NCBI RefSeq assembly: GCF_037055355.1
Contig: NZ_CP146350.1
Coordinates: 3,433,001 to 3,497,000, forward strand
Reading direction: 5' to 3'
Length of the DNA stretch: 64,000 nt
Source of the DNA: Streptomyces sp. DG1A-41
GTDB lineage: Bacteria > Actinomycetota > Actinomycetes > Streptomycetales > Streptomycetaceae
The position numbers and the translations under genes were made by a program. The notes below the pieces were generated by a model. It was not told the DNA's origin. It made no database searches and saw only the letters and a program-made list of their open reading frames with translations. This document shows positions 56,098-64,000 of the stretch, piece after piece (the stretch's first letter is position 1; every line of letters starts with the position of its first letter).

Positions 56098-56381
56098 ACT
56101 CACCCACCGCCGTCGGCCGGGCCCCGCCCCGGACCGCTGCCGCCGCCCTTCGCCCGTCCCCCGGGACAGGCCAGGAGACCGCGAGCCGAATTCGCCGCGC
56201 CTCGCCGACAGCCAGACCCCTGCTCCGGCCGTCGGCGCCGCCACGCTTCTCCCGTCCCCCGGGACAGACCACCGCGAGCCGCATTCGCCGCGCCCCGGCA
56301 CCCCGCGCCCTTCACCCCTCGCCGACGGCCAGGCCCCGGCACAAGGCTCAGGGCTCAGGGCTCAGGGCTCAGGGCTCAGGG
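56098..56381. repeat. Repeat-rich intergenic region between prfB and pkaB
   Basis: The 387-bp gap (55,989-56,375) holds no credible gene. A unit beginning CCCGTCCCCCGGGACAG and running through GCGAGCCG to CGCCGACAGCCAG occurs twice (near 56,155 and 56,250) with small changes. At 56,345-56,381 a GGGCTCA heptamer is repeated in tandem about five times, and the last copy supplies the pkaB stop codon. Confidence 0.75.
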
Positions 56382-57623
56382 GGACTGTGGGGCCGAGTTC
56401 TTCGTGTCCTGGGGAGGGGTGTTCGCGTCGTCGCTCGATGTGGACAGCCAGGCCCCGACGCCGACGGCCGCCGCCAGGGCGACCGCGGCCGCGCCCAGGG
56501 CCACGCGGCGGCGCCGGGCGATGGCGCGGTTGCGGGCGGAGCCCGGCCGGGGCGTGCCCGACGCGCGCGGGGCCCTGGCTGTGCCGTGGGCGCCCCCGGC
56601 CAACTCGTCGGGTGCCGGTACGCGCATCGAGGTGTGGGTGTCCCGGTTGGAGTCGGCCGGTTTCGCGCCCGGCACCAGGGGGACCGCGCCCCGCCGCCGG
56701 ACCCGCTCCCCGGCCGGTGCCGGTCCGGCGGGCTGCTCCTCCCGGTCCGTCTCCTCGGCGGACTCCGTGTCCGGCTCGTCCACCTCCAGCGGCGGCATGC
56801 CCGCCAGCATCGGCAGCAGCTCCCGCAGCCGGGCGCCGAGCTCCGAGGCCCGCAGCCGCGAGGCCGGCGCCTTGGCCAGGCACTGCACGAGCAGCTGCCA
56901 CAGCTCGTCCGGGATGCCGGGCAGCGGGACGACCGTCTCCGTGACGTGCCGGCGCAGGACCGCGCCCGGGTGGCCGCCGCCGAACGGGGTGAAGCCCGCG
57001 AGCAGCTCGTAGAGGACCGTGGCGAGCGCGTAGATGTCGACGGAGGCGCGGGGCGGCAGGCCCTCGACGATCTCCGGGGCGAGGTAGTCCGGCGTGCCGA
57101 TGATCTTCGTGGCCTTGGTGCGGCGCGGGGTGTCGATGAGTTTGGCCACACCGAAGTCGGTCAGCAGCGCGCGGTGGGAGCCGCCCGGTCCCAGGGGGCC
57201 CTGCATGTCCAGGAGCACGTTTTCCGGCTTCACGTCCCGGTGCACGACGCCCGCGGCGTGCGCGGCCGCCAGCCCGTCGGCGATGTCGGCCGAGATCGCG
57301 ACGGCGGCCTCGGGCGCGAGGCGCCGGTCCCGCTCCAGCCGGGTCCGCAGGTCGGTGCCCCGGACGAGGTCCATGACCAGCGCCAGGTCGTTGCCGTCCA
57401 CGACCAGGTCGCGCACCGACACCACGTGCGGGTGCTCCAGGCCGAGCAGCGCCGTCCGCTCTTGTACGAACCGCCCGACGAGTTCCTGGTCGGACGCGAG
57501 GTCCTCGCGCAGCAGCTTGATGGCGACGGGGCCCTCGGGGCCCTCACCCAGCCACACCGTGCCGGCGCTGCCCCGCCCCAGGATCTGGTGGGCGGTGTAC
57601 CGGCTGCCGATCTTCCGTGCCAA
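56376..57623 (-). CDS. pkaB: Membrane-anchored Ser/Thr protein kinase PkaB
   Basis: A 415-residue Hanks-type kinase. Glycine loop LGRGSAGTVW, Lys36 (VAIKLL), HRDVKPENV (Asp130), DFG at 156-158 and GTPDYLAPE activation segment are intact. A disordered linker leads to a single C-terminal membrane helix (RVALGAAAVALAAAVGVGAW) and a short outer tail without PASTA repeats. The start is TTG at 57623. It lies 122 bp downstream of pkaA, same strand, as in S. coelicolor. Substrates are not known from the sequence. Confidence 0.92.
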   Translation of the reverse strand: MARKIGSRYTAHQILGRGSAGTVWLGEGPEGPVAIKLLREDLASDQELVGRFVQERTALLGLEHPHVVSVRDLVVDGNDLALVMDLVRGTDLRTRLERDRRLAPEAAVAISADIADGLAAAHAAGVVHRDVKPENVLLDMQGPLGPGGSHRALLTDFGVAKLIDTPRRTKATKIIGTPDYLAPEIVEGLPPRASVDIYALATVLYELLAGFTPFGGGHPGAVLRRHVTETVVPLPGIPDELWQLLVQCLAKAPASRLRASELGARLRELLPMLAGMPPLEVDEPDTESAEETDREEQPAGPAPAGERVRRRGAVPLVPGAKPADSNRDTHTSMRVPAPDELAGGAHGTARAPRASGTPRPGSARNRAIARRRRVALGAAAVALAAAVGVGAWLSTSSDDANTPPQDTKNSAPQSP

Positions 57624-57745: not shown

Positions 57746-59428
57746 TCAGTTCGTGCCGGAACCGCTCCCGCCCAGCTTCTCGAACCAGCCGGTCACGGTG
57801 TTGAACCAGTCGGTGAGCTGGCTCCAGTAGCCCTTGCCCGTGCCGATCCACTCCTGGAGCGGGCTCAGTTCCCAGATCAGCCAGCCGGCGACGAACAGGA
57901 TGACGATCGAGAAGAGACACCCCTTCAGGCAGCCGAGCCCGGGGATCCGCATCCGGTTCGCGCTGCGCTGCCGGGGCTCGCGCGGGGGCCGCTGCGGCTG
58001 CTGGGGCTGGGGCGGCGGCGCGGGCGGGGCGTAGCGCTGCGGCGGCTGGGGCCGCTGCGGCTGCGGGGCGTACTGCTGGGGCTGCTGCTGCGGATGGCCG
58101 TAGCCGGGCCCGGGCGGGGGTGCCTGACGCCGCGGGGGCTGCTGCGGCCGGGCGACCTGCCGCTGGGGGCGGCGGCGCAGCGGGTCCTGGTTGGGGTCGA
58201 GGTACTGGACCTGCGTCTGTTCGTTGCGGTCGCGGGCCGCCCGCAGCTGGTTCTGCCAGGGGTGCGGGTCCTCGGGTCCGCCCTGCTGGCCCTGCTGCCC
58301 GGGGTGGCCGGGCGAGCCCGGCGGGACCGGCGGCATCACGGCCGTCGGGTCGGCCGCGCCCCGGCCCGGCAGGACGGCGGTGGGGTCGGCGGCGCCGGCC
58401 GGGCCGCCGGTGTGCGGCATGACGCTGGTCGCGGCGTTCGGGTCGTACGCACCCGCGCCCTGCGGGAGGACCTGGGTGGGGTCGGCCGCGCCGGGCGTGT
58501 CCGGCACGGGCGCGGGCGCCGGGTCGGGCACCAGGAGCACGCCGACGCCCTCGGCGGCGGCGATCTGCGCGGAGTTCGCGTGCACACCGATGCCCTCGGC
58601 GACGACGCGCAGGCCACGGGCGAGGTTCTCGGCGCTGGGCCGCTCGTCCGGGTTCTTGCGCAGACAGCGCTCGATGACCGTCCACAGCGGATCGGGGACC
58701 GTGGAGGGGCGGCGCGGCTCGGCGCTCAGGTGCTGGTGCAGCACCTCCAGGGCGGAGCCGCCGGAGAACGGCGGGCGGCCGGTGACCAGCTCGTACAGCA
58801 GGATGCCGGCGCCGTAGATGTCGACGGCGGAGGTCTGCGGGCGGCCCTCGGCGGACTCGGGCGCGACGTACGCGGGCGTGCCGACGAACTCCTGGGTGCG
58901 GGTCAGGCCCGGGGAGTCGGCCAGGCGGGCGATGCCGAAGTCGGTCAGCAGCGGGTGCATCTGCCCGTCGCGCTGCTGGAGCAGGACGTTCGCCGGCTTG
59001 AGGTCGCGGTGGACGACGCCGTCGGCGTGGCTGGCGGCGAGCGCGTCGGCGACCTGGGCGGTGAGCAGGGCCGCGGCCACGGGCGTGAAGGGCCCGTTCT
59101 CGCGCAGGTAGCGGTGCAGGTCGGGGCCCTCGACGAGGTCCATGACCAGCGCCAGCAGATCGCCCTCGACCACCAGGTCACGGACCCGGACGATGTTCGG
59201 GTGGGTGAGCCGGAGCAGGACGGAGCGCTCCCGGAGGAACCGCATCACGACGTCCGCGTCGCTGGCCAGCTCCTCCTTGAGGACCTTGATCGCGACGGTC
59301 TCGCCGGGCTGTCCCGGCACGGCCGCCTCGGCGCCCGCGGTCTCGCGCTGGCGGGCTCGCCAGACGGTGCCCGTGGCGCCGCGTCCGAGCGGCTCCTCGA
59401 GCAGGTACTTGCTGCCTACCGGCCGCAC
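57746..59428 (-). CDS. pkaA: Membrane-anchored Ser/Thr protein kinase PkaA
   Basis: A 560-residue Hanks-type kinase: glycine loop LGRGATGTVW, Lys48, HRDLKPANV (Asp142), DFG at 163-165, GTPAYVAPE. The juxtamembrane part has three AADPTxV(L/M)P motifs (Thr 318, 350, 362), candidate phosphorylation sites. It is followed by a long Pro/Gln-rich stretch and a membrane helix (FSIVILFVAGWLIW) with a short outer tail. GTG start at 59428. The divergent gene at 59791 encodes an FHA protein, a class that reads phospho-Thr. Confidence 0.92.
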   Translation of the reverse strand: MRPVGSKYLLEEPLGRGATGTVWRARQRETAGAEAAVPGQPGETVAIKVLKEELASDADVVMRFLRERSVLLRLTHPNIVRVRDLVVEGDLLALVMDLVEGPDLHRYLRENGPFTPVAAALLTAQVADALAASHADGVVHRDLKPANVLLQQRDGQMHPLLTDFGIARLADSPGLTRTQEFVGTPAYVAPESAEGRPQTSAVDIYGAGILLYELVTGRPPFSGGSALEVLHQHLSAEPRRPSTVPDPLWTVIERCLRKNPDERPSAENLARGLRVVAEGIGVHANSAQIAAAEGVGVLLVPDPAPAPVPDTPGAADPTQVLPQGAGAYDPNAATSVMPHTGGPAGAADPTAVLPGRGAADPTAVMPPVPPGSPGHPGQQGQQGGPEDPHPWQNQLRAARDRNEQTQVQYLDPNQDPLRRRPQRQVARPQQPPRRQAPPPGPGYGHPQQQPQQYAPQPQRPQPPQRYAPPAPPPQPQQPQRPPREPRQRSANRMRIPGLGCLKGCLFSIVILFVAGWLIWELSPLQEWIGTGKGYWSQLTDWFNTVTGWFEKLGGSGSGTN

Positions 59429-59790: not shown

Positions 59791-62700
59791 ATGCAGATCC
59801 GGCTGACCGTCGTAGACCCGCTGGGCCTGGCGGCTCCGGCTCGGGACCGCGCCGCGCGCTGCGACGTGCTGGTCACTGCGCCCGCCGGGACGGCGCTCGC
59901 GGTGGTGGCCTCGGGGCTCGCCCAGGTGGTCCTCGGCGGTGACGGCTCGGGCTCCCCGGTGCTGTACGCCGGGGAGCAGCGGCTCGACGCCCAGCGCTGC
60001 ACGCTCGGCGAGCCCCCGCTGACCGACGGTGCCGTGCTGTCCGTGGGCGCGCCGGGCGAGCCGGAGCCGCATCCCGAGCTGGACGACGCCCCGGCCCAGC
60101 TCCAGGTGGTCGCCGGGCCCGACGCCGGCGGTGTCCACCTGCTGCACGGCGGCGAGATCCGCATCGGCCGCTCCGCCGACGCCGATGTGCCGCTCGACGA
60201 CCCGGACGTCTCCCGGCTGCACTGCGCGGTGACGGTGTGCCCCGACGGCCGCGTCTCGGTCGCCGACCTCGACTCCACGAACGGCACGACGCTGGACGGC
60301 GCGCGCGTGGGCGACCGGGCGGTCCGTTTCGCGCCGGGGGCGCTGCTCCGGATCGGCGAATCGGCTCTGCGGCTGGCTCCCGCCGGGGGGCCCGGGGCCC
60401 GGGTGGACACGACGCCGGACGGGGAGGGGCACGTGCGCGTGCCGGGGCCCGCCGGCGGCTCGGGCGCGGATATGCGCGCGTCGGGGACGGTCACTGGGGC
60501 TCTCGGTGGTGCCGGGGCTGGGGGGGCTGCCGGTGCTGTGGGCTCTGCCGGTACCGCGGCTTCTGCCGGTACTGCCGGAGCTGTGGGTTTTTCCCGGCCC
60601 GCTGGTGCTTCCGATCCTGGGGGGCCTGCCAGTCCTGCGGGACCGGCCGAGTCTGCCGGACCTGCCGAGTCTGCCGGACCTGCCGGGCCTGCCGGTGCTT
60701 CGGGGTCTGGCGGGCGTGCCGGTGCTTCCGACCCTGCCGGGTCCTTCGGGCGTACCGGTGCCTCCGGGCCTGGCGATGCTTCCGGGCGTACCGGTGATTC
60801 CGGGCCTGGCGGTACTTCCGGGCGTACCGGTGATTCCGGGCCTGCCGGGTGGATTGGGCCTGCCGGTGCCGGTCCAGCCGGGTCTGCCGGGCGTGCCGGT
60901 GATTCCGGCCCTGCGGGACCTGCCGGGTCTGCCGGTTCCTCCGGTCCTACCGGAGCTTCCGGGGCCTCCGGTCCTCCCGGGTCTCTCGGGCGTGCCGGTG
61001 CCTCCGGCCCTGCGGGTCCCGCCGGTGCTTCCGGCCCTGCCGACTCTGCCGACTCCGCCGGGCCAACTCATCACGCTTACGGCTCGGCGGCCTGGGATGC
61101 GCCGGGCACCGCGGGGCGCGGCTCCGGCGACTCGGCGGTGGTGCCGGGGCAGGGCGGAGCGCCGCGGGTCGAGAGCAGGGGTGCCAGAGCGGCCACGGAG
61201 GCTTCGCGGCCGGCCGCTGGGGGTGGGCCGGGGGCCACGCAGAGCAGAAATCGGGATGCCGCCGGGGATGAGCCAGGAGCCACACGGGGCGGACATCGGG
61301 ATGCCGCCGGGGGTGGGCCGGGGGCCGCGCAGGGCGAAAGCCGGGATGCTGTCGGTGAACACGGGCCGGGCCACGCCCGGGGCCAGGGGGACCCGGGGCC
61401 CGTCGGCCCCGGCGGACACGCGGCGCGCTCGGCCTCCCGGGAAGGTGCCCGTACGGCTTCGCCGGAGGGCGCGGTCCGGGCTCCCCGGCAGCGCGGAGCC
61501 GCCGAGGGCTCGTCGGCGGTGGCCTCCCCCGACGGCGTCACCAGCACTCACCGGCAGCGCGGTACCGGGATCGGCACCGGGGACACGCACGCGGGGCGCT
61601 CCGGGGCCGGGGCGTTCGGTGACAGGGGTGCGGGGGTTTCCGGCCACGGCGCGGGAGCGGCGGACGGCGTAGGCCCTCAGGCCGGGACCGGAGGCCAGGC
61701 GGCCCCCCGTCCGACGGCTCCCGCCGGGGGCGGCCGTCCCGGCGACGACGACGGCCTGGCCCCGGCGAGCTCCGCAGACGAGCGGTCCGGCCGTGGGCGC
61801 AAGGGCACCCCCCTCCGCGGCACCGACGTTCCGCCGGGGACGCGCAGGCGCGGCGGGCTCGGGGCGTGGGCGCGGCGGTTGACCGGAGGGCGTGGCGAGC
61901 AGGGGGCGGCCGCGCGCGGGACGCACGAAGACGAGCCGGCCGAAGTCGCGGCGGAGCGCACGGCCGTCGGTCCGGCGGTGCCGGAAACGTGGCCGGATCC
62001 TGCCACGCTGCTGCTGACGGCGCTGGGGCCGGGGCCCCGGCTGTGGGAGCGCGGCCCGGGCCACCCGGAGGCCCTCGCGGTGCGCCTCGGCACCGCCGAC
62101 CGGGCGGCGCCGGACGGCTCGGGCCTGCTGCCCGCGGTGCCGGTGACCTCCGGGCTGCGCGAGGTCGGCGCACTGGGACTGGCCGGGCCGCGGGCGCGGC
62201 TCGCCGGGCTGGCCCGTGCCGTGCTGGCGCAGCTCACCGCGCTGCACTCCCCCGACACCCTGGAAATAGTCCTGATCGCGGCGGACCGCTCCCGCCCGCT
62301 GGAGGAGCGCACCGCCGAGTGGGGCTGGCTGGGCTGGCTGCCGCATGTCCGCCCGGGGCACGGGCAGGACTGCCGCCTGCTGCTCGCCTACGACCGGGAA
62401 CAGGCCGCCGCCCGCACGGACGAGTTGCTCCGTCGCCTGGAGGACCAGCTGGCGGACGCGGGAGGAAACACCGCAGGGGCCGCCGGGCTGCTGGACAACG
62501 TGCGGTTCTCCAGAGCCCAGGTGACCGACGGCCCGAGCGGCAGCGCGCCACGCCCCGACGCCGACAACCCCGTGCCCGGCACCGCCGCTCCCGTGACCCG
62601 CCGCCCCTCCTGGGCCCGGGACGACACCCCCGCCCCCGCCCCGGCCACCGGCTTCCCCGGCCCCTACACCGTCCTCGTCGTGGACGGCGACCCCGGCGGG

Positions 62701-64000
62701 GCCGATCTGCGCGAGGCCGTGGCACGGCTGGCGCTGGAAGGCCCCCGGGCCGGGATCCACGTCGTCTGCCTGGCCGAGACCGCGGCCGCCTCCCCCGCCT
62801 CGCCCGTTACGGAGACCTACGAGGCGGCCTGCTCGGTGGCGCCCACGTTCCGGCAGTGCGGTGCGGTCGCGCTGCTCAGCGGGGACGTGGCGACGGCCCT
62901 GCGGCTGATGCGCGTGGCCCGGGTCGACGGCGCCTCGGGACCGGTCGGGCCCGTGGGCCACGGCACCATCGCCACCGTCGACGCCGTCTCCGCCGCGTGG
63001 GCCGAGCGGTTCGCGCGGGCGCTGGCGCCGCTGCGTACGGACGGCGCGACGAGCGAGCGGCAGCCGCGCGTCTCCGCGCCCCTGCCCCAGGCTGCCCGGT
63101 TGCTGGACGAGCTGGGCCTGGCCCGGGCCACCCCGGCGTCGCTGATGGCGCGCTGGGCGGACGCGGCCGACGACACCGAGGCGCTGGGCGGGCGGGTGCG
63201 CGCGGTGCTGGGCGCCGGGCCGCGCGGCCCGGTCTGCGCGGACCTCGCGGCCCAGGGACCGCATCTGCTGATCGAGGGCCCGCCGGGCAGCGGACGTACG
63301 GAGCTGCTGCGGGCGGTCGCCGCGTCCCTGGCCGCCGCCGAGCGGCCGGACCGGCTGGGCATCGTGCTGGTCGACGGCCGGGGCGGCCCCGGCGCGGGCG
63401 GCGGGACCGGCGAGGGACTGCGCGTGTGTACGGACGTCCCGCATGTCACCACGTACCTCACGGCCCACGACCCCGTCCGGATGCGCGAGTTCGCGCAGTC
63501 CCTGAGCGCCGAACTGAAGCGGCGCGCCGAGCTGCTGGGGCGGTCCGACTTCACCGAGTGGCACACCGGGCGCGAGCTGTCGGGCCGTATGGTCGCCCAG
63601 CGCACGGCGACGGTTCGGGGCGGCGCCCGGGCCGAGGCCGGTGCCGGGACCGCCGCCGGTGCCGGGGATCTCGACTCCCCGCCCAGTTCGACGATGCGGC
63701 TGCGGCCCGGAGCGGGCCGGCGGCGGACGGAGGCGGCGCCGCCGCTGCCCCGGCTCGTCGTGGTCGTGGACGACCTGGACGCGTTGGTCTCCCCCGCCCT
63801 CGGCTCGACCGGACGGCCCGCGGCCGGGTCGGTGATGCGCGCGCTGGAGGCCGTGGCCCGGGAGGGCGAGCGGCTGGGGGTCCACCTGGTGGCGGCCACC
63901 GGTCCGTGCGCCCGTACGGCGGAGACGGAACCGGCGCGCCGGGCCACTCTCCGCGTCACCCTCGACGCCCCGGCACCGGGCCCCGACGAGCCCGCTCCGG
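59791..64000 (+). CDS. FHA-domain FtsK/EccC-like ATPase with a collagen-like linker, 3' end cut by the window
   Basis: At least 1,403 residues, with no stop before the window ends. Residues 1-100 resemble the N-terminus of EssC/EccC proteins. An FHA domain spans about 103-197 (Gly126-Arg127, Ser141-x-x-His144, Asn164-Gly165). Residues 210-720 are low complexity, with a Gly-X-Y array at 284-417. About 731-850 matches the EccC domain before the ATPase (LGPGPRLWERGPGHPEALAV). The first ATPase domain has Walker A GPPGSGRT (1163-1170, Lys replaced by Arg) and Walker B LVVVVDDLDALV. The start is uncertain; GTG at 59749 is also in frame. A role in secretion or DNA/protein translocation is inferred. 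Confidence 0.85.
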   Translation, partial: MQIRLTVVDPLGLAAPARDRAARCDVLVTAPAGTALAVVASGLAQVVLGGDGSGSPVLYAGEQRLDAQRCTLGEPPLTDGAVLSVGAPGEPEPHPELDDAPAQLQVVAGPDAGGVHLLHGGEIRIGRSADADVPLDDPDVSRLHCAVTVCPDGRVSVADLDSTNGTTLDGARVGDRAVRFAPGALLRIGESALRLAPAGGPGARVDTTPDGEGHVRVPGPAGGSGADMRASGTVTGALGGAGAGGAAGAVGSAGTAASAGTAGAVGFSRPAGASDPGGPASPAGPAESAGPAESAGPAGPAGASGSGGRAGASDPAGSFGRTGASGPGDASGRTGDSGPGGTSGRTGDSGPAGWIGPAGAGPAGSAGRAGDSGPAGPAGSAGSSGPTGASGASGPPGSLGRAGASGPAGPAGASGPADSADSAGPTHHAYGSAAWDAPGTAGRGSGDSAVVPGQGGAPRVESRGARAATEASRPAAGGGPGATQSRNRDAAGDEPGATRGGHRDAAGGGPGAAQGESRDAVGEHGPGHARGQGDPGPVGPGGHAARSASREGARTASPEGAVRAPRQRGAAEGSSAVASPDGVTSTHRQRGTGIGTGDTHAGRSGAGAFGDRGAGVSGHGAGAADGVGPQAGTGGQAAPRPTAPAGGGRPGDDDGLAPASSADERSGRGRKGTPLRGTDVPPGTRRRGGLGAWARRLTGGRGEQGAAARGTHEDEPAEVAAERTAVGPAVPETWPDPATLLLTALGPGPRLWERGPGHPEALAVRLGTADRAAPDGSGLLPAVPVTSGLREVGALGLAGPRARLAGLARAVLAQLTALHSPDTLEIVLIAADRSRPLEERTAEWGWLGWLPHVRPGHGQDCRLLLAYDREQAAARTDELLRRLEDQLADAGGNTAGAAGLLDNVRFSRAQVTDGPSGSAPRPDADNPVPGTAAPVTRRPSWARDDTPAPAPATGFPGPYTVLVVDGDPGGADLREAVARLALEGPRAGIHVVCLAETAAASPASPVTETYEAACSVAPTFRQCGAVALLSGDVATALRLMRVARVDGASGPVGPVGHGTIATVDAVSAAWAERFARALAPLRTDGATSERQPRVSAPLPQAARLLDELGLARATPASLMARWADAADDTEALGGRVRAVLGAGPRGPVCADLAAQGPHLLIEGPPGSGRTELLRAVAASLAAAERPDRLGIVLVDGRGGPGAGGGTGEGLRVCTDVPHVTTYLTAHDPVRMREFAQSLSAELKRRAELLGRSDFTEWHTGRELSGRMVAQRTATVRGGARAEAGAGTAAGAGDLDSPPSSTMRLRPGAGRRRTEAAPPLPRLVVVVDDLDALVSPALGSTGRPAAGSVMRALEAVAREGERLGVHLVAATGPCARTAETEPARRATLRVTLDAPAPGPDEPAP
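60640..61041 (+). repeat. Collagen-like Gly-X-Y array in the FHA-ATPase gene
   Basis: About 45 consecutive triplets with Gly in nearly every first position (residues 284-417). GPA, GAS, GDS, GRT and GSA are frequent, and Pro is usually in X. The exceptions are Glu or Asp at residues 287, 293, 314 and 329, and one triplet lacks a residue near 359-361. The stretch GPAGPAGSAGSSGPTGASG is typical. Confidence 0.9.
61221..61355 (+). repeat. Three tandem 45-bp repeats in the FHA-ATPase linker
   Basis: Three 45-bp units at 61,221, 61,266 and 61,311 encode fifteen-residue repeats around PGAxxxxxRDAxG. They lie downstream of the collagen-like array. Confidence 0.8.

Follow-up and report, generated by a model that had tools for sequence, protein, structure and literature searches.

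Based on the comparison of orthologs and on the composition of the underlying DNA, we propose that a collagen-like Gly-X-Y array in an FHA/FtsK-like protein of Streptomyces sp. DG1A-41 is most likely a flexible linker that a minisatellite has expanded, a reading to which we give a probability of roughly 0.87. The array was found in a window of 64,000 nucleotides, the whole stretch of DNA that was analysed, and all coordinates below without another reference are positions in it. A flexible Gly/Ala/Ser linker expanded by slippage had been the fallback of an earlier, sequence-only reading; supported by both comparative and DNA evidence, it fits best.

In the scenario that we favour, an in-frame 9-bp minisatellite would have grown inside an indel-prone, probably disordered linker, which joins an FHA domain to one putatively degenerate FtsK/EccC-like P-loop domain. 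Many inspected orthologs have a short Pro-Ala-Gly seed (e.g. GPAGPAGPTHH) at the site, which could have been the starting point; in the window's clade, slippage or unequal recombination would then have changed the array's length repeatedly and in both directions, 9 or 18 bp at a time. Each 9-bp unit holds one GGN codon, so that Gly-X-Y results from every expansion of this kind. The segment itself most likely serves as a length-tolerant flexible tether, which could allow docking of the FHA domain on phosphorylated partners, possibly the products of two neighbouring kinase genes, while the P-loop domain works separately.

Gene layout and conserved neighbours

The gene (59791..64000, plus strand) is an open frame that starts at the ATG at 59791 and extends beyond the window end; the complete protein of 1487 aa was taken from its own genome (L007:6791-11254), and the N-terminal MQIRLTV is common to the gene product and its orthologs. 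An FHA domain occupies residues 123-189 (60157..60357, plus strand; PF00498, 57 bits against a cut-off of 20.7), and a single FtsK/SpoIIIE-type P-loop domain occupies residues 1146-1371 (63226..63903, plus strand; PF01580, 51.7 bits against a cut-off of 24), with the Walker A motif GPPGSGRT at residues 1163-1170 (63277-63300, plus strand). The position of the array between the FHA domain and the ATPase part, as read from the letters, was borne out: it falls in a hypervariable low-complexity linker that spans residues 201-733 (60391..61989, plus strand) and is 533 residues long in the window protein. The FHA region matched solved FHA domains in the PDB set, and its GRS, SRLHC and STNG stretches, whose residues we take to bind phosphothreonine, vary little or not at all among 37 aligned orthologs; the region is thereby predicted to adopt an FHA fold with phosphothreonine-binding residues in place. 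An AlphaFold2 model of P0117, the shortest of those listed orthologs that have an FHA domain, reached a mean pLDDT of 43.9 and a pTM of 0.34 from a 37-row alignment and was set aside, its confidence being too weak for use.

Two divergent protein kinase genes lie on the minus strand beside the gene, one encoding 560 aa (57746..59428; PF00069, 183.6 bits) and the other 415 aa (56376..57623; PF00069, 156.4 bits). Conservation of these neighbours was counted on the 73 of 80 ortholog loci with full flanks: minus-strand homologs of both kinases were present at all 73, and a solute-binding protein gene was found downstream of the FHA/FtsK-like gene at 72. This arrangement, in which two kinases face an FHA protein, suggests a role as a phospho-dependent partner. 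Among the papers listed by literature searches, none concerned this linker, and none was found for the kinase names PkaA/PkaB together with FHA.

The Gly-X-Y array and its DNA unit

Across residues 284-417 (60640-61041), Gly stands at 41 of 45 in-phase positions if one phase change (residues 359-361) is allowed. The sequence-only estimate of about 45 triplets therefore holds as a count of positions but not as a contiguous tract, the longest unbroken runs in this interval comprising 19 (residues 361-417; 60871..61041, plus strand), 10 (332-361), 6 (296-313) and 4 (317-328) triplets. Over the slightly wider residues 278-423, Gly occupies 42 of 49 in-phase positions, with seven interruptions and a one-residue phase slip. 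The Pfam Collagen model (PF01391) matched residues 361-416, within the longest run, at 29.8 bits, barely above its cut-off of 27.2, and collagen chains in the PDB set matched residues 296-417 (best E 4.7e-24). In 20000 residue shuffles of residues 278-425 the longest Gly run never exceeded 10, compared with the 19 observed, and in the linker's Markov DNA models (orders 2, 3 and 5; 2000 each) the longest runs were at most 7, 9 and 11, respectively. The pattern is real and above chance, and with 19 unbroken triplets, 42/49 positions in phase and a PF01391 match above cut-off it amounts to the long regular Gly-X-Y repeat by which a collagen-like domain is recognised. Among 42 array triplets, Pro was found at X in 17 and at Y in one, and Thr at Y in four. 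Pfam recognised neither a trimerisation domain nor a secretion domain in the window protein.

At the DNA level the array is a degenerate 9-bp repeat of the form GGN NCT NCC with an 18/36-bp higher order, encoding the interrupted Gly-X-Y of residues 278-423 (60622..61059, plus strand). Tandem Repeats Finder reported periods of 18, 27 and 36 at 62-69% matches, and the direct repeats within the array have spacings that are multiples of 9, except one of 87. The array has a GC3 of 0.562 compared with 0.935 in the FHA and ATPase parts, and the linker as a whole has a GC3 of 0.737 in the window gene against a minimum of 0.81 among 53 other loci (58 rows were compared, five of them the window's own gene). 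In 48 units, the wobble base of Y is C in 43 and that of X is T in 38, about as constant as the second base of the Gly codon (G in 42/48); the first base of that codon is the most constant column (47/48), while the third is variable, unlike the third base of Y. Such constancy of the X and Y wobble bases is expected from the copying of a DNA unit and not from amino-acid selection alone. A 96%-identical ortholog from another one-contig genome carries, in the same place, a much shorter array of the CCTGCCGG unit.

A comparison of codon positions speaks mildly against expansion by slippage, as do the constant first and variable third base of the Gly codon. Deviations from the unit affect 7/98 of the first and second Gly codon positions and 29/168 of those of X and Y (Fisher p 0.025; p 0.069 for the comparison with the third Gly position), an excess of conservation at Gly that is biased because the Gly pattern itself guided the choice of stretch.

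We also considered the pattern as a plain property of both DNA strands. This fails at the array locus, where the other frames show the pattern only weakly (which again counts against the favoured reading) and the antisense frame contains at most seven triplets in a row and has no Pfam match, in an other-frame comparison that covers 90 of 121 proteins; a collagen pattern on both strands does occur elsewhere in this and other genomes. A second tandem repeat in the same linker (61213-61349; 45 bp, 3 copies, 77% matches) shows no collagen pattern.

The array site among orthologs

With residues 740-1480 as query, 3185 relatives were retrieved. The comparison covers the 120 best of them, 78-95% identical over these residues, and may thus miss rarer linkers in more distant homologs. 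The precomputed Collagen family is absent from all of the best 120 of 3185 relatives. Linker length ranges from 178 to 613 residues among 111 measurable proteins, the window protein included, without a common value. The sequence-only reading had proposed a search for conserved Gly-X-Y periodicity in Streptomyces FHA-FtsK proteins. Such conservation was not borne out: in a test covering 111 of 121 proteins (seven of the ten omitted are shorter proteins without a listed FHA domain), Gly periodicity exceeded all 300 shuffles of the protein's own linker in seven, the window protein among them (P0001, P0002, P0006, P0007, P0009, P0012 and P0016), and an eighth, P0104, reached p 0.033. Six of the best 120 relatives show Gly periodicity at the array site, weaker than that of the window protein. 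Among the named genomes, the longest run in the 61 readable linkers of 80 loci was six triplets. Many of 40 orthologs viewed have a site ending in GPAGPAGPT or similar, a seed of two to three triplets.

The carriers of the periodicity were placed on a tree that covers 49 of the 121 proteins and leaves out the linker. All seven fall in one 16-row clade, mixed with nine non-carriers, and the carrier pattern requires six changes, at least five of them forced by well-supported branches; parsimony over the whole tree of 49 proteins did not cluster the carrier label beyond shuffles (131 of 500 shuffles were as low). P0003, a tree neighbour of the window protein that groups with P0001 (support 95/84), has 32 residues between GEGHVRV and THH compared with 208 in the window protein; this distance is 25 residues in P0017 and 27 in P0022. 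P0073 and P0059 have an expanded site too, but its AGTSGGAG-type repeat does not place Gly at every third residue. The Gly-X-Y repeat is not conserved as a domain among the orthologs, and since close relatives lack the array or carry another repeat at its site, the array looks like an ordinary linker expansion and not like a working collagen domain.

The reading originally put first, a collagen-like domain causing trimerisation or stiffening of the ATPase, is not supported. The finding that the sequence-only reading had named as refuting it was made in five orthologs with linkers longer than 533 residues (P0022, 545; P0033, 561; P0046, 581; P0053, 609; P0057, 603), none of which has a Gly run above 3 in a measurement covering 110 of 121 proteins or belongs to the 8/111 that beat their shuffles at p < 0.05. 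A true triple helix in the cytoplasm, with its glycines kept by selection, would account for the 19 unbroken triplets, the Collagen score above cut-off, the PDB collagen-chain matches, the frequent Pro at X and the mild, biased excess of Gly conservation. We nevertheless regard it as very unlikely, given that the array is absent from P0003 and eight others of its 16-row clade and replaced by another repeat in P0073 and P0059, that the tract is interrupted and slips phase, that no trimerisation domain was recognised by Pfam, and that Y positions hold little Pro or Thr, whereas a review (PMC8968730) gives Thr at 48% of Y positions in Gram-positive collagen-like proteins. Nothing found here requires a functional triple helix. 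The confinement of the carriers to one clade counts against the favoured reading in that the array could be advantageous there. We consider it highly improbable that a cytosolic collagen-like tract specific to this clade, born repeatedly from the 9-bp repeat, trimerises or stiffens a degenerate FtsK-type FHA protein and has been retained in some lineages because its Gly phase is useful.

Selection could instead act on linker length, that is on the spacing between FHA domain and ATPase, with Gly-X-Y merely the material at hand. That all 111 measured linkers are long, at least 178 residues, would agree with this, yet their spread up to 613 residues and the difference between 208 and 32 residues at the array site of tree neighbours make it very improbable. 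Tandem repeats can also collapse or inflate in assembly, but an array length produced in this way is barely credible here: the 107-nt copies in the array are merely 61-74% alike in the rows shown and hence easily told apart in assembly, the reading frame remains open, the genome consists of a single contig and several relatives carry arrays at the same site.

Collagen-like matches elsewhere and known systems

Of the 41 genomes of the genus that were searched, 36, among them the DG1A-41 genome, gave Pfam Collagen matches above cut-off. Some of these fall in frames that contain stop codons or on the two strands of a single place, so that false matches on GC-rich repeats are a weakness of the model. 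Matches of this kind should consequently be compared with orthologs before a structural role is claimed, and the array described here offers a worked case: a short DNA repeat, in frame within a linker, best accounts for a Pfam Collagen match in a GC-rich Streptomyces genome. Were a triple helix to form here after all, new cytosolic oligomerisation elements would be arising through repeat slippage.

The DG1A-41 genome contains seven Collagen-matching places at E 0.001 or better, two of which are opposite strands of one place. One of them, a FabG-like reductase (L009/L115, G000:C1:3872320-3873354), has a 129-residue N-terminal extension with 20 unbroken Gly-X-Y triplets; in L116, a relative whose core is 91% identical, the extension is 18 residues long, the starts having been read by eye. 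DNA similarity revealed an FHA protein (L004, G000:C1:3151269-3154385) in which a GPG repeat with 11 consecutive triplets forms the linker that precedes the FHA domain. A further protein (L008/L011, G000:C1:1684850-1685014) combines two chaplin-type (ChpA-C) stretches with a GNPGDPG repeat that Pfam Collagen matched on both strands, one frame having a stop codon, and an open frame (L013, G000:C1:3682572-3685730) places GAPGAP-type repeats ahead of XOO_2897-like deaminase and SUKH-4 immunity-like domains. The reductase and the GPG-linker FHA protein resemble the window protein in combining a cytosolic-type domain with an extension or linker made of Gly-X-Y, although they are other genes with other repeat units. 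Given these collagen-like stretches in other genes of the genome, Gly-X-Y expansions of linkers and extensions are not unique to the gene described here.

Among bacterial collagen-like proteins, streptococcal Scl proteins share an interrupted Gly-X-Y pattern with the window protein, which matched the families NF038329 and NF038330 weakly and below both cut-offs (42.1 of 325 and 28.2 of 400, respectively). Scl1 and Scl2 are described in the same review (PMC8968730) as surface or secreted proteins whose triple helix was shown by CD. Whereas Scl and its kin are exposed or secreted, the window protein has no recognised secretion domain and its array is not conserved in orthologs.

The type VII secretion ATPases EccC and EssC share the FtsK/SpoIIIE P-loop, and the window protein partially matched both TIGR03924 and EccC5 structures; other FtsK/SpoIIIE chains were also matched in the PDB set. 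N-terminal beta-sandwich (FHA) domains are present in EssC as well, according to PMC4925161. All scores against EccC/EssC families fell far below their cut-offs (TIGR03924, 140.8/509.15; TIGR03928, 72.2/778.4; TIGR03925, 44.3/346.55). EccC and EssC have membrane segments ahead of several ATPase domains, the active ones with a Walker A Lys, and a WXG100/Esx gene adjoins the ATPase gene; among the genes around the FHA/FtsK-like gene are those for kinases, a release factor and a solute-binding protein. The window protein differs in that it has a single P-loop, where Arg replaces Lys, and lacks a hydrophobic, membrane-like stretch from the FHA domain to the ATPase (19-residue Kyte-Doolittle means of at most 1.28 for starts 191-1145). 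Its highest 19-residue mean, again by hydropathy only, is 1.81 at residues 26-44. The window protein thus stays below the family cut-offs and shows neither the membrane segments, as judged by hydropathy, nor the several ATPase domains with Walker A Lys that mark EccC/EssC. In the description as an FHA/EccC-type ATPase, the EccC label needs care. The exchange of Lys for Arg in Walker A (GxxGSGRT) extends to 121/121 family proteins, with the Walker B DD conserved in 120/121, and points to a nucleotide site that is unusual or inactive and has been retained throughout the genus. With one P-loop, Arg for the Walker A Lys and no membrane-like segment, the hexameric ring expected of such ATPases is an assumption and is not established for this FHA/FtsK-like family. 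The window protein is a member of the Streptomyces proteins annotated as 'FHA domain-containing' or 'FtsK/SpoIIIE domain-containing', with which it shares the start, the FHA domain and the GxxGSGRT P-loop, and it is the array site in which it differs from them.
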